The position numbers were made by a program, and so were the translations under genes. Positions 20,886-30,635 of a DNA stretch of 64,000 nt are shown here, in pieces. The DNA is taken from the NCBI GenBank assembly GCA_018873225.1, contig JAEILZ010000001.1, forward strand, positions 1,178,001 through 1,242,000, given 5' to 3'. The notes under the pieces were generated by a model. The model ran no database searches. It was given only the letters and a program-made list of their open reading frames with translations, and was not told the origin of the DNA. Within the stretch, counting starts at the first letter, position 1, and the number at the start of each line of letters is the position of its first letter. Source of the DNA: [Phialemoniopsis] sp. UDSM-2020 (lineage: Eukaryota; Ascomycota; Sordariomycetes; Thyridiales; Thyridiaceae).

Positions 20886-23817
20886 GGACCCCGACACGTC
20901 ACAGACTGAGCCGCGGAAGGCGCGGCGGACCGCCAACGCGTGAGTGACCCTTGTCATGACAAGACGAATTCTTTGTCTAATACTGCAAATGTAGATGCGT
21001 CCCCTGCCGTCAGAGTAAGATCAAATGCTCGGGCGAGGAGCCATGCCAGAATTGCCAGAGGCGCACGGTGCAATGTCATTTCGCCGAGGGCAACAACAAA
21101 GTGGTTGTCACAGAAAAGTTGGTTCATCATCTTTCACACTCCGGTCTGGACTCCTCTGCTTACACATCCTACTTTTTTCGGAAGATATTTACAGGACTTG
21201 CAGAAGCAGGCTGAAGCACACCGGCTGTCCTCGGCGGCCACGGCGGCCACGGCGGCCACGGCGGCCACGGCGACCACAGCCAGCAACGGTGACCAGAGGT
21301 CTCAGTCGGGCAGCCAGTACAGTCCGTACCACGCCCCGGTGTCGGTACCGGACTCGCGGCAGACGGCCCCAACGTTCAGCTCAGCATCTCCGATGTCACG
21401 GTCCTCTATCCAGGGTGAAGCTTTACTCGGACACAAACGCTCAAGCGAGACTGCTTTCGGGGTGAATGGCAGTCCCTACGGCCCAGTGAGGATCGACACC
21501 ACTCCAACACCTACCCTCATCATGTCTAATCTCCCGTTCCAGCAAAACCTTGTACGTCCTGGCTCTGGTCCTGGACCTCTTCCTGGCTCGATCACCGACC
21601 CTTTGTCCGGACCTACCTCGTGCCCTCTGCCCGGCCCTGGTCCTGTTGCCGGCCCTGGTCCTGTTGCCGGCCCTAGCCCTGGCTCTGTCGTTGGTCCCAG
21701 TCCCGGCTCATTGCCGCCACCTCACCCTCAAGTCGCCACTCCCCTCAACAGCATATGGTCCAGTACGTTTACTATACCGGCCAAGACGATCAAAAACACG
21801 CAAAGAAACAAAAGAGCTTGGAGTAAGTCATCATTTCTCCAGCACTCACACATTGATCTAGCTGATTGTAGTGGTGCTAGTCTGGCTGGCTCCATGGTCT
21901 ACATGGTCCTTCACCGTCCGACTCACTCTCATGCTCTCCGATAAGCTGCATCCCCAAGACTCTTCACTTCCGCCCAGCCTCCTCAGCACGGAGATCTACA
22001 GTATCACATATAAGACATCAACAGTCCATGATGTCCCCGACGTTACCGGCCTTCCCTCGCTGAACCATGCACTTTATCTCTTCAACACCGTCAAGTTTCA
22101 CCTAGGTCAAACGTATCGATTGTATGACGAAGAAGAATTTGAGCATCAGATCCGGGATTTCTATCCCAATGCGCTCCAGAGAGCAACAGAGTGTCCCCTT
22201 TGGTTCAGCAAATTCCTCCTCACCCTAGCCTTTGGAACTGCCTTCCACGCTCCTCCAAGAAACAGCGCAGACCCACCCGGCTCGAAATTCTTCATCAGGG
22301 CAATGGCGTTGATGCCTGACTCTACGTCCCTGTGGAAAGACAGCTTCCTGGCCATGGAGACTCTGGCCCTGGGAGGCTTGTATCTGTATTCCATCGACCA
22401 GAGGGAAGGTGCAAATTTCTTCGTATGTGCTCCCACACCTCACGCAGGCACGCTCGCAATGATCTGTCTTACTCATGAAACTTTGTAGCTCGGTCAAGCG
22501 ATACGAATTGCGCAGCTAGAGGGGATGCATACTCACCTTCCAGAACATGAGCTGGGCACCAAAATGGCTACGTACGCTCGTGATCTTTGGTGGACACTCT
22601 ACATCATGGACAGGCACTTCTCATCTTCGGTCGGGTTGCCCATGTCTGTCCAGGATAGCGACATCACTACCCCCGTGAATCCGCCCGGTCTGGGTAGCGC
22701 GGTGGACAGCGCCCGGAGCCTTCAGGTCAACCTCTCGCATCTGATGTCGGTCATCCTCACCAGTAAGTCCCAACTGACTTTCTCACATGATATTCAATCA
22801 AGCTCATAGTTGCAGCTGTCTACAAGCCCAGTGTGACGGAATTAGCAACATTCCTCGAGCAGACAAGATCAATCCTGCACACACTGGCACACCACGCTCA
22901 AGACATTGAGAGAATAATCAGCCTGAAATTTCAAAATTTTGCGGGCACAATGCCGCGAGACACTCGTCTGCTCACCTTACTGTATCATCAGGTCTGTTCA
23001 TCTATTATCCCAATGACATCGCCCTCCATGATCTTAGCTGATTTTGTGAATAGTGTGTGATCTTCGCTACCCGTCCTTTACTTTTGTCCGTCATGAAAGA
23101 ACGCCTGGATTTGCTTGGGTTCCAGGGCGACGAGAACTGGACCGATTTCCTCGCTCAAACTGGTTATGTCATCTCAACAGGAATCAAGTCAGCTGCAAAG
23201 ACTCTCCAAATCCTGACCAGCGAGTTCAGTGTCCTAGGTAAAGACAGCTTTTCTCTGATCGGTCGATTTTCAACACAGAGATTGACATACTGACGTGCAC
23301 TTCAGATGCGTTCCTTCCTTATGACGTCGAGTTTACCTTTGGGGCGGCCTTGAATCTGACCATGGCAAATGCCCTGTTCCCCGAAGTTGTTGACTACAAT
23401 AGCTGTCACGAGATGGCGCATCAAATATTGGATGACTTGGTATATCGAGGAAACCGCTTGGCCCAGGCACGGCGATCAGAGCTTTGCCACCTCGAAGTTC
23501 TCTGCCTTGAACTCATCTCCAGAGGTCAACGCCAGGGTCTTCAGACGCTGCAGCTGTTTGGCCCCGAACCGTCAATGGTACATGCCGCAGAGAAACCGGG
23601 CGGTAGCTTGGTCCCAACCGAGAACGACCCGCATCCCTTGACCGCTGCCATGGGCATCGACCCAAGCCATTCGATGCACATGCTGCCGCATCCGCAACCC
23701 GCAAACGACTTGGAGTTCCTCGATAACATTGGAATCTCCTCTGAAGAGTTTCTCTCTATTGTTCAGCAAATGGGAAACTCCGAGACATTCCCAGACAGCA
23801 TGTTGACTTTGGGTTGA
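20884..23817 (+). CDS. Zn(II)2Cys6 transcription factor with Fungal_trans domain
   Basis: Eight exons (20884-20939, 20995-21117, 21185-21822, 21872-22422, 22489-22762, 22816-22991, 23054-23237, 23306-23817) encode 837 aa. The first intron interrupts the zinc cluster just before its first Cys; the cluster reads ACVPCRQSKIKCSG then CQNCQRRTVQC. A short coiled-coil-like segment follows (YLQDLQKQAEA). Then comes low-complexity sequence: an Ala-Ala-Thr run from a 9-base repeat near 21237-21275, and a Pro/Gly-rich stretch with an 18-base tandem duplication near 21643-21680. The Fungal_trans (PF04082-like) domain contains GGLYLYSIDQREGANFF and RDLWWTLYIMDR. Its position between the hydratase and aldolase genes makes it a candidate regulator of both. 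Confidence 0.87.
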
Positions 23818-25095: not shown

Positions 25096-25801
25096 GGTCA
25101 ATGGTAAAGGAAGAGGAGCAAAAGGATATAATCGAATGCTAGATGTAAATGTAAATGGGACGAGATCTATCTACAGGTCGATTACAGGGCAAAGTTAAGG
25201 TCTTGAGAGGTGCTCCTGGAACTCGTGCTATATGTCACTCCCCAGGGTGTAAGTCCAGGGCCCTGCGGGGAAACGACAGCCGTCGTTTGGTAAGCGCGTC
25301 GGGTCTGGGATGTGAGAGAGCCTCCACTCACTTCGGTCAAGCTACTGCTGATCGCGCGATCGGATGCATCCCGAACCCTGTGTGAAAACTAACAATTCCA
25401 TATCTAGTAACTCTTTCTTACCCCGGATCCCCCATATCTGCCTTTCTTGTCTGAGCATCTTCTCCAAAATTCTCGGGTGGTGGATCAGGACCTTGCTCCA
25501 AGAGATCGTGCCTGGCAGCCCGTGCTGTGGAGTGGCATCGGATGTGTCCCGATAAGGCCGTCAAAAGCCACCATCCCTCGTCGAAAAGCGCGGAAGAGGC
25601 TGGTCAGGGAGGGTTCAGCGCACGAGGGTGTTAGGATTTTGGATTTGGTCAAGCTTGCATTGATAGAACACAGTTGCGTAGTGCATTTTTTTGCCGAAAA
25701 AAAAAGTGAGAAAGGAAACTTGTGTGCCGGTTCGAGGGGTAATTAGGGGTGTAAACCAAAAACAGGCCAAAAAATACACAACTAAAAAATGAAAAAGAAT
25801 T
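25096..25801. other. aldolase promoter and tRNA 3' flank
   Basis: No protein gene is supported. A T-run on the minus strand (A-run at 25791-25795 on the plus strand) just beyond the tRNA is a good RNA polymerase III terminator. Another A-run is at 25696-25704. Confidence 0.45.
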
Positions 25802-26001
25802 TGCGGTCTGTGTGGATCGAACACACGGCCTTTAGATATGTGGATTGAAGTTCACTTCACTAGAGGGGGGTTAGTGTTGGTAGTGGTGGTAATGTGGTGA
25901 AAGTGGGTACTGACGTCTAACGCTCTCTGTAGAATTGGTTAGTGCCTGGTAGGCATTGTTGGACATGATAATGTAACATACCCCAACTGAGCTAAGCCCG
26001 C
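25802..26001 (-). tRNA. tRNA-Phe (GAA) with canonical intron plus two GT-AG insertions
   Basis: Read on the minus strand, removal of three inserts leaves a 73-nt tRNA. Acceptor GCGGGCT pairs with AGACCGC except at 5-68. D-stem is GCTC/GAGC, anticodon stem TTAGA/TCTAA with loop CTGAAGA (anticodon GAA), variable loop AGGCC, T-stem GTGTG/CACAC with loop TTCGATC, discriminator A. Insert 1 (25981-25927, 55 nt) sits after nucleotide 20 in the D-loop; insert 2 (25914-25860, 55 nt) after nucleotide 32. Each starts GT (GTATGT, GTCAGT), ends AG (CTACAG, CTCTAG) and carries CACTAACC about 11 nt before its 3' end, matching fungal spliceosomal introns. Insert 3 (25854-25838, 17 nt) is at the canonical 37/38 site and contains CTTCA complementary to the anticodon. 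A box, B box and a T-run terminator are intact. A dead tRNA invaded by introns is the alternative. Confidence 0.85.
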
Positions 26002-28444: not shown

Positions 28445-30635
28445 CTATATGAGCGTTAGAACTTGACGTCCTGCAACTCCCTCAGGGATCATGCTTGGCT
28501 CGTAATCGGCAATACCGATGCGACGATAGTGGTCTGGCAGATCATCAGCTGGTAATGTGATCAAAACCCAGCATCGATCTTCAAGATACGAGTACCCGCA
28601 CGTCATCAAGCAAGTCACCGTTCCGCCGTCTCCTCCAATATCAACGCTGCAGTCAAGATAGACCTTCTCGGCAATATAAGTTGCATCGTCGGTTGCTGTT
28701 TTGAGCCGCGCTCGGATCAAAGGAGCCCTCCCTGCTTCCACGGTACGCCCGTGCTCTCCCTCATCAGGGAGACGCTCTATCAATAATTGAGCTTGCCATA
28801 CTAACCCGTTGAGGTGCAGCATTGAGCTCTGTAACTCGGATGTCATTGGCACACCACGCCAGCCGATCGCAGCGCCAACCAGTTTGATATCGGAATCCTC
28901 TCGGAAAGAGTAGCGCCCAATCCTGGAGATCCTGGAGGAGTCCAAAGCGCAATAGCCTGTTACAGGCCCGTCCACTGAAAGCCACGACCAAGATGGAAGG
29001 CCTTCAATCCGAGCGGTACAGGTTCGAGTGACCCTCCAACACAAGTAAAACGAATGGTAGACCTCCATAAGCCCAGAAGCGACTCGTCCTCCATGGCCTT
29101 TTCAAACGCGGAAGTAATGCCTGCTATCGCAGGCACCTTGTCTTTCTTGAATGAGAGCTCTCGAGCGGAATAATCTTCAACGAGAATAGACCAGCGTTCC
29201 CTCATATTTTGTCGCCTCCCATAAACCCGGGCGAAGACATCACGATGATATTGGGTTCCTTCACCCTCCAAGATAGTCCGGTCTGCCCATCCACCATCCT
29301 CATACTCGACGCAGCTACGGCACTCCCAGTACATTTGCGACGTATCAAAGTGAACGACGCGGGAAGAAAGTGCTACTTCTTGTGTTGTCCATGCTCGCTT
29401 GAAAAGGGGCCGTCTGAACGGGGAGTCTGGTGACGCGGATGCTTCGGAGCTCCAGAGATCACTCATTCTCCGGAACAGGACTGTATCGTCGCCGTCTTGG
29501 AACCTCCATGCAGGTAACAAGTCGTGGAAGAGCCCGCCATCTGCGGCGCTTGACCCGGTAGCCGCGATTGTCAGATACGAGTTGCTGTAGATGGAAGCCA
29601 TGAGTCTCGACTCGGTCTCCCAGTCGTGTCCGTCATCCTGAATTATGCACAAGGAATCAATCCAGATGTACTGCAGTCCGATCTTCCGCGTAACAATGAT
29701 AGCTTCCTGGAATGTTTTAGGCATCTGATCCATATTCAACCTGTTCATATGGCTCTGAAGTGTGCCCCGAGTGGTTCTCATGAATGATCCGCTGCCCCAG
29801 CAGTAGCTCAGAGTTGTGTATTGTCCTCTTTGTCCGGATGAAATGTAGAGTCTTGGCGCCTTTTCCGTACTTCCAACATCTATGACTCGTGCAGGAAGTG
29901 GCGGGCTAGCATCTGCAAGCCGATAACATGCTGAGTGGTTCAAGTCGCACTGACCAAGCCACTGTGGCAGCACATCCAAGCGAGCAGGGAATGCGTCAGT
30001 GCCGGTAAGGCTTTGCCAAAAAGGTCTTTGGGATATGGAATCTATGGAATCAGCACGCTTAGCATCTTGCTGCTTATATTGAACAAAACAAAAAGATGGA
30101 CATCCTTGCCTGGTTTCTTTACATGGAATACCTCCAGAGTACCCGCTATGAAAGGCCATGGGTTGCCCCACTCGCGCCGGATTAAAGGCTGGGCAAAGAA
30201 CAACTGGTTCTCCTTGTTAATCAGCGCTTTCGTAAGGCAGTAAGTGTCGGTGTCGGTGTTGGTGTCGGCGAAAGAATCAGCTATGTCACCGAACCTAGTG
30301 ATGTTTTGATCCCTAGAGGAGGTCAGCGGAGATTGGAGCAGCTCCAGGGTCTGCTCGACGCTGAATCGCCACAAAAGGCTGTTGAATATGGCGAGGCAGA
30401 AGCCGCAGCTGGAACTGTTCAGTAGAATGTAATGATAATCTGCTCCTGACAATCCTGGGATGTAATGATCTCTGCGGAAGACGCCGTTGCGGCATTGCTC
30501 GCAGAGTTGCGACGGGCACTGTACACCACTAGCAAAGAATGCTTGCACCTTCTCTTGCCTCTCAGGGTGGCTTTGAACGCTACTCTGTACAGGTTCCACA
30601 TAGATCATGTGTAGTATATCAGTCCGAGCTTGCAT
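28445..30635 (-). pseudogene. HET-domain protein gene with an apparent frameshift
   Basis: Exon 1 (30635-30123) encodes an N-terminal segment with Cys motifs (CEQC, CGFC) common ahead of HET domains. A 53-nt intron leads to exon 2 (30069 on). The HET core is clear: YTTLSYCWG, then TFQEAIIVTRKIGLQYIWID SLCI-type sequence and RAWTTQEVALSSRV. Such domains act in heterokaryon incompatibility and programmed cell death. Near 29047-29060, after residues GLWRSTIR, the frame must shift by one base to continue into LCWRVTRTC and LPSWSWLSVDG, which belong to the same family. No GT-AG pair repairs this. A one-base loss at the T-run (A-run 29047-29050 on the plus strand) is the simplest reading, either real decay or a sequencing error. 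The start at 30635 is the first ATG; 30608 is also possible. Confidence 0.75.

Follow-up and report, generated by a model that had tools for sequence, protein, structure and literature searches.

A tRNA-Phe(GAA) gene with two probable spliceosomal introns, and similarly split genes of other tRNAs, in a fungal genome

How could a working tRNA come from a gene in which an ordinary tRNA intron is joined by two further inserts bearing the signals of mRNA introns, and is such a gene alive? It is usual to teach tRNA introns and mRNA introns as two unrelated fields, each with its own machinery. The question is raised by a tRNA-Phe(GAA) locus in the 64,000-nucleotide stretch analysed here (the window, C1:1178001-1242000 of a 44.18-Mb, 11-contig fungal assembly).

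Structure of the tRNA-Phe(GAA) locus

The gene occupies positions 26001-25802 on the minus strand of the window, with exons and introns alternating as 20-55-12-55-5-17-36 nt. Exon 1 (25982..26001, nt 1-20) contains the acceptor 5′ strand, the A box, and the D stem and loop up to G20, and is followed by the 55-nt intron A (25927..25981, GTATGT..CACTAAC..ACAG), which lies in the D loop between nt 20 and 21. After the 12-nt exon 2 (25915..25926, nt 21-32), the 55-nt intron B (25860..25914, GTCAGT..CACTAAC..CTAG) interrupts the anticodon loop between nt 32 and 33. The 5-nt exon 3, TGAAG (25855..25859, nt 33-37), holds the GAA anticodon and is separated by a canonical 17-nt intron of the endonuclease type at 37/38 (25838..25854, called by ARAGORN) from the 36-nt exon 4 (25802..25837, nt 38-73), which supplies the anticodon 3′ strand, the T arm with the B box and the acceptor 3′ strand. 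All of these features lie on the minus strand, as does a T5 run resembling a Pol III terminator (25792..25796), which begins 6 nt beyond the tRNA 3′ end. The A box is whole within exon 1 and the B box within the last exon.

ARAGORN found no tRNA in the unspliced 200 nt, either with the intron option or in a run with no intron option stated, and a scan with the Rfam tRNA model left the unspliced locus unreported. With introns A and B removed, ARAGORN called tRNA-Phe(gaa) with a 17-nt intron at 37/38; with all three inserts removed it called a 73-nt tRNA-Phe, with cloverleaf, anticodon and loop residues present. The single non-pair of the acceptor stem, G5.A68, is common to all four Phe copies (C1, C4, C9 and C10). 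A preliminary description of this DNA had claimed a 73-nt tRNA-Phe(GAA) split by an ordinary 17-nt intron at 37/38 and by two 55-nt GT..AG inserts after nt 20 and 32, each with a branch-like A about 11-12 nt from its 3′ end. The tRNA and its 37/38 intron are borne out by ARAGORN, the coordinates, lengths and positions of the two inserts were right, and the branch-like A stands 12 nt from the 3′ end in A and 11 nt in B.

A HET (heterokaryon incompatibility) domain protein is encoded near the tRNA-Phe gene (window 28963-30216, minus strand). The yme2 ortholog is 94% identical to that of Thyridium curvatum, the other matches listed being at 65-77%; on this one protein we place the genome with Thyridium-like sordariomycetes (Thyridiales). 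A transcription factor in the window had no Thyridium match, and seven of its eight organism-named matches (38-44% identity) belong to organisms that we take to be Chaetothyriales.

Copies of the Phe gene across the assembly

A 203-base query from the window locus recovered copies with both inserts on contigs C1, C10 and C4, the sites of A and B being common to them, and one copy without either insert on C9. The C4 copy is a second apparently intact split gene; its mature tRNA is identical to that of C1 (73/73). Comparing these two genes over 15 signal positions per intron (5′ hexamer, ACTAAC and 3′ triplet), all 15 were alike in each of the two introns. Between the 5′ signal and the branch box, only 16/34 and 15/34 positions were alike (shuffled means 0.44 and 0.48), and whole intron bodies agreed at 21/43 and 17/41. 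The difference between signals and whole body was significant in both introns (Fisher p = 1.9e-4 and 3.5e-5), with the proviso that one and the same search had located the inserts and picked the signals compared. We read this pattern as pointing to selection on the exons and splice signals, since gene conversion would have homogenised the introns too.

The T loop of the C10 copy is partly deleted, and ARAGORN rejects this copy both spliced and unspliced, hence at least one split gene is decaying. Relative to C1 it carries a paired change at 28-42 (pairs read by hand), and its C-G pair at this position is shared with the C9 copy. This C-G pair is also the Neurospora state, and so it may be ancestral.

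In the C9 copy (L008, C9:2980505-2980596) both GT-AG inserts are absent exactly, the 37/38 intron is kept and the anticodon is GAG. ARAGORN with the intron option called it tRNA-Leu(gag) with a 17-nt intron, and a separate run called no tRNA. We rejected it as a working Phe gene on account of the GAG anticodon, a D-stem mismatch and an extra T-loop base. It could be an old copy that was never invaded, or else it could derive from a half-spliced precursor by reverse transcription.

Split genes of other tRNAs

With 63 of its 930 candidates scored, a scan with the Rfam tRNA model is no census. Some of its misread hits turned normal once a GT-AG segment was removed, namely Lys(CTT) (n = 2), Ser(GCT) and Gln(CTG), and a split initiator Met gene adjoins another Rfam hit. 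At that locus (L019, C8 near 1428252) two initiator-Met genes are neighbours, and only one of them is interrupted at 33/34, by a 51-nt GT-AG insert.

The search was widened with the B-box pattern GGTTCGANYCC (188 places, control 241; the first 100 of the 188 were listed) and its T and R sub-patterns (50 and 92 places). Overall 78 + 59 stretches were retrieved, and places of the C sub-pattern were covered as far as C6:2579137. A script sought acceptor, T arm and A box first and then removed GT..CTRAY..AG segments, which added a third Lys(CTT) copy, Glu(TTC), Gly(CCC) (n = 2), Leu(CAG), Arg(CCT) and Arg(CCG). A split Cys(GCA) gene with the 5′ end GCAAGT was added by hand (L167, C11 near 403034); it combines a GC-AG insert (GCAAGT..AACTAAC..ATAG) at 31/32 with a 12-nt 37/38 intron.

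Numbered by hand, the insert sites include 18/19 (Lys, Glu, one Gly and Arg CCT), 19/20 (Leu) and 20/21 (Phe). Further inserts lie at 25/26 (Arg CCG), 31/32 (Cys), 32/33 (Phe) and 33/34 (initiator Met), at 34/35 inside the anticodon itself (Gln and Ser), and at the end of the variable loop (the other Gly).

This partial census covered 68 nuclear tRNA genes that seem intact, and 15 of them carried at least one spliceosome-type insert: Phe on C1 and C4, Lys (n = 3), Glu, Gly (n = 2), Leu, Arg (n = 2), Gln, Ser, Cys and initiator Met. The 68 are the 75 distinct tRNA-like contexts solved, less eight on contig C3 and less L082 and L089, plus the Cys gene and two Thr genes (L059 and L064) called by ARAGORN only. 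Contig C3 looks mitochondrial; its tRNA genes are densely packed and include a Phe(gaa). The Ser gene (L072) gave a solver tie with a wrong anticodon and was counted on the reading that matches its paralog. The Phe copies on C10 and C9 stand outside the 68; with the former, there are 16 split genes and 19 inserts. ARAGORN gave the expected isotype for 15 of the 16 spliced products, while from the unspliced genes it reported no gene in seven cases and a wrong gene in nine, showing how tRNA finders miss split genes. The preliminary description dealt with one gene; judged by these sequence signatures, the inserts are spread over the genome.

Four tRNA-like loci (L082, L089, L148 and L209) were unsolved and kept out of the counts. 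L082 (C1 near 2349252) resembles Leu(CAA) and contains GTGAGT..CACTAAC, and was excluded because, as read by hand, its insert seems to end in ATGG and not in AG at the point where the exon has to resume; maybe it has a mutated splice site or is a dead copy. L089 (C1 near 3474718), L148 (C6 near 1162824) and L209 (C11 near 948019) have a good acceptor, T arm and A box with no convincing standard-tRNA reading, and perhaps contain other insert types. Both His(GTG) genes seen (L067 and L090, C1) have 37/38 introns of 54 and 49 nt by the solver, which are not GT-AG; that of L067 contains, by eye, a long inverted repeat. Lys(TTT) (L065), with a different D-arm form, has no insert. With two mismatches allowed at most, the D arm of an unsplit Lys(CTT) gene was matched once, on the mitochondrial-looking C3 (control 4).

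Splice signals of the inserts

The 19 inserts are 48-72 nt long and begin with GT in 18 cases and with GC in the Cys gene (a GC-AG form), with G at +5 in every one. The branch box is CTAAC in 16, CTAAT in two and CTGAC in one, the branch A lies 10-15 nt from the insert end in all 19, and all end in AG. As the solver demanded GT, AG and CTRAY of most of the inserts, the +5 G and the branch distance are the features less shaped by the search; the Phe C10 and Cys inserts are likewise independent of that demand.

When inserts were dinucleotide-shuffled and the solver left to choose the borders, a two-intron solution arose in 1/200 shuffles for Phe C1 and 0/200 for Phe C4. The control was permissive elsewhere, with 106/2800 over 14 genes and Ser the worst at 24/200; it left out Phe C10 and Cys, both unsolved by the GT-AG solver. 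Given this control and the recurrence of the inserts in other copies and other tRNA genes, we rejected a chance origin. The pattern TAGCNNAGTNGG + GTNNGT + CTAAC, which is blind to D-arm forms like that of Lys, matched only the three Phe genes (control 0).

Ab initio mRNA-like introns in the window (n = 27, 49-93 nt, most commonly GTAAGT) faced control counts of 10, 9 and 17, so the match of the inserts to the mRNA introns of this genome is only rough, and we dropped the window introns as a clean yardstick. There was no sign of an introner family, with near-identical copies at many sites: the 203-base locus matched Phe paralogs only, in a weak test with four candidates scored, and inserts A and B are unlike each other (24/67).

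Probable transcription by Pol III

A run of five or more T lies within 47 nt downstream of all 16 split genes and upstream of one of the 16, compared with 1.7% of random window stretches. Pol III genes would be expected to show such downstream runs; for the non-Phe split genes, A box and T loop had been search criteria. T-run avoidance within the inserts gave no signal (T4+ in 2/19 compared with 4/27 mRNA-like introns, T5+ in neither set). Three U6 loci match the whole model uninterrupted (47 of 2476 candidates scored), hence not every Pol III gene carries inserts.

The spliceosome's usual substrate is capped Pol II RNA, and the tRNAs could in principle be read within Pol II transcripts and spliced there rather than as Pol III precursors. 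The T runs, placed downstream and almost never upstream of the split genes, speak against this, as does the setting of the window gene, where the nearest open reading frames of at least 230 aa end at 21944 and begin at 28960. We regard a Pol II origin as highly unlikely.

Possible cleavage by the tRNA endonuclease

The 37/38 introns of this genome are of the endonuclease kind, and in some eukaryotes non-canonical tRNA introns have been attributed to the same enzyme (PMC4090602, in excerpt). The inserts might then be cut by the tRNA splicing endonuclease at non-canonical places, in the style of archaea, nucleomorphs or Cyanidioschyzon, with their GT-AG appearance a coincidence. We looked for the bulge-helix-bulge, that is, a central helix of 4 bp flanked at the splice sites by bulges of 3 nt each. 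In three registers, the full 4/4 central helix was attained by one insert of 19, that of Cys, which by estimate is about chance, and the folding energy of the precursor equalled that of shuffles (z 0.04). Endonuclease cleavage would also leave unexplained the +5 G and the narrowly spaced CTRAY of all 19 inserts, and the conservation of signals between C1 and C4. This explanation is extremely unlikely in our judgement. Self-splicing group I or II introns were set aside on size.

Evidence on whether the split genes are in use

In eukaryotic tRNA genes, insertions in the D and T arms are mostly taken for pseudogenes (PMC4090602, in excerpt). By that reading the split genes would be dead copies, damaged by intron-like insertions and tolerated since other genes supply the tRNA. 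The decayed C10 copy fits it, as do insert-free copies of initiator Met, Gln, Leu(CAG), Cys and Ser, which match their split paralogs closely: 69/72 for initiator Met (spliced form) and, across the exact insertion site, for Gln, 89/93 for Leu(CAG) with its 37/38 intron included, 70/72 exon positions for Cys, and likewise across the exact site for Ser. These presence/absence pairs are natural material on intron gain outside protein-coding genes.

For Phe, pattern, mature-sequence and D-arm searches of the assembly found no uninterrupted nuclear gene with a Phe anticodon. The pattern CTGAAG..ATCTRAAGG occurred at six places (control 3), all of which were retrieved, and a tRNA was solved in one, a split Lys gene. 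A looser anticodon-arm pattern was counted at 47 places (control 54), the mature tRNA-Phe query matched C9, C4 and C1 only, and the D arm of an unsplit Phe gene, with two mismatches allowed at most, matched only C9 (anticodon GAG) and one place within yme2 (control 5 matches). As far as these sequence searches reach, we find no uninterrupted Phe gene in the assembly, save possibly a very divergent one. The preliminary description had allowed that the locus could be a dead gene if it gave no spliced product or precursor while other intact tRNA-Phe genes existed; of the uninterrupted nuclear kind, none came to light in these searches.

The identity of the C1 and C4 mature exons despite diverged introns also argues against dead genes, as do compensated stem changes in split genes. 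Read by hand, Lys genes on C1 and C6 differ by double changes that keep 28-42 and 49-65 paired, and the split and unsplit initiator-Met genes by a paired change at 7-66. The split genes are thus seen to retain their cloverleaf through paired changes, as far as sequence comparison can tell. In the Lys C6 pair, signals (14/15) and body (32/43) did not differ significantly (p 0.11). Altogether, we consider it exceedingly improbable that the split genes are dead.

A model of maturation

The window locus is very probably a working nuclear gene for tRNA-Phe(GAA) that holds, besides an ordinary 37/38 intron, two short spliceosomal introns of the U2 type, which would be removed first. We infer from sequence that Pol III transcribes the gene, that the spliceosome excises these two introns and in which order the steps occur. 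Pol III would transcribe a precursor of about 200 nt, from the intact A and B boxes to the downstream T run. U1 would pair at GTATGT and GTCAGT and U2 at CACTAAC, and the spliceosome, acting in the nucleus, would release introns A and B in lariat form. Only after that could the D and anticodon arms fold, letting the tRNA splicing endonuclease cut out the 17-nt intron and a ligase join the halves. We place the spliceosome first because the ruler mechanism ascribed to the endonuclease takes its measure from the body of the tRNA (PMC4090602, in excerpt), which could not take shape while the D and anticodon loops each hold an insert of 55 nt.

The preliminary description had offered two readings: either the spliceosome helps to mature a Pol III precursor, or intron-like elements have recently invaded a tRNA gene. 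The former appears supported by signals and exons kept over intron centres at shuffled level, by the failure to find an uninterrupted Phe gene, by T runs after the split genes and by the same signals in many tRNA genes. A recent date finds no support in the case of the Phe introns, the bodies of which have diverged between C1 and C4.

It is also likely, with somewhat less assurance, that the spliceosome would be needed by at least one-fifth of this fungus's tRNA genes, among them all its working genes for tRNA-Phe. Uncapped Pol III precursors would then pass through two unrelated machines in a fixed order, cytoplasmic translation would be hard-wired to pre-mRNA splicing, and the C9 copy may be a half-spliced intermediate reinserted by reverse transcription. 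If true, an uncapped Pol III transcript with 5- and 12-nt exons can be spliced well enough to feed translation, and the system allows one to ask whether the spliceosome must precede the tRNA endonuclease.

Comparison with known systems

No precedent for spliceosomal introns in tRNA genes appeared among the titles and abstracts listed by our literature search, which had preprints and most subscription journals outside its range. An exact pattern had no match in the prokaryotic genome contigs or viral contigs searched. Ascomycete rDNA carries mRNA-type introns. It resembles our case as a non-coding RNA gene with spliceosomal introns (PMC11782384 cites a title on deuteromycete 18S rDNA), but rRNA is a long Pol I product and not a tRNA. 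Excerpts of PMC13148404, PMC4494063, PMC10161547 and PMC11782384 report no spliceosomal tRNA introns.

The 17-nt intron, and the 37/38 introns in other genes of this genome, resemble canonical eukaryotic tRNA introns, whereas inserts A and B occupy other positions of the tRNA and bear the signals of the spliceosome. In eukaryotes, tRNA introns of a non-canonical kind are rare, with cases known from nucleomorphs and Cyanidioschyzon merolae (PMC4090602, in excerpt). As here, the Guillardia theta nucleomorph and C. merolae have several introns per tRNA gene, with D-arm sites included, and tRNA-Phe(GAA) of G. theta also has two introns. However, the introns of G. theta are 3-24 nt long, those of C. 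merolae go with bulge-helix-bulge motifs, and in the excerpted account both are credited to the tRNA endonuclease, with none described as GT-AG with a branch box (PMC4090602).

A close likeness is to the introns of fungal U6 snRNA and U3 snoRNA genes, which are also short mRNA-type introns in genes of small structured RNAs. U3 and U6 were, in the excerpted text of a 2017 paper, the only such RNAs so far known to be often interrupted by introns (PMC5832005). Our results differ in that the interrupted genes encode tRNAs for ten amino acids and have exons down to 12 and 5 nt, that a second, endonuclease-type intron often coexists, and that the three U6 matches of this genome are themselves uninterrupted. 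Spliceosomal introns in small RNA genes are known, and we rate tRNA as a new and surprising host for them.
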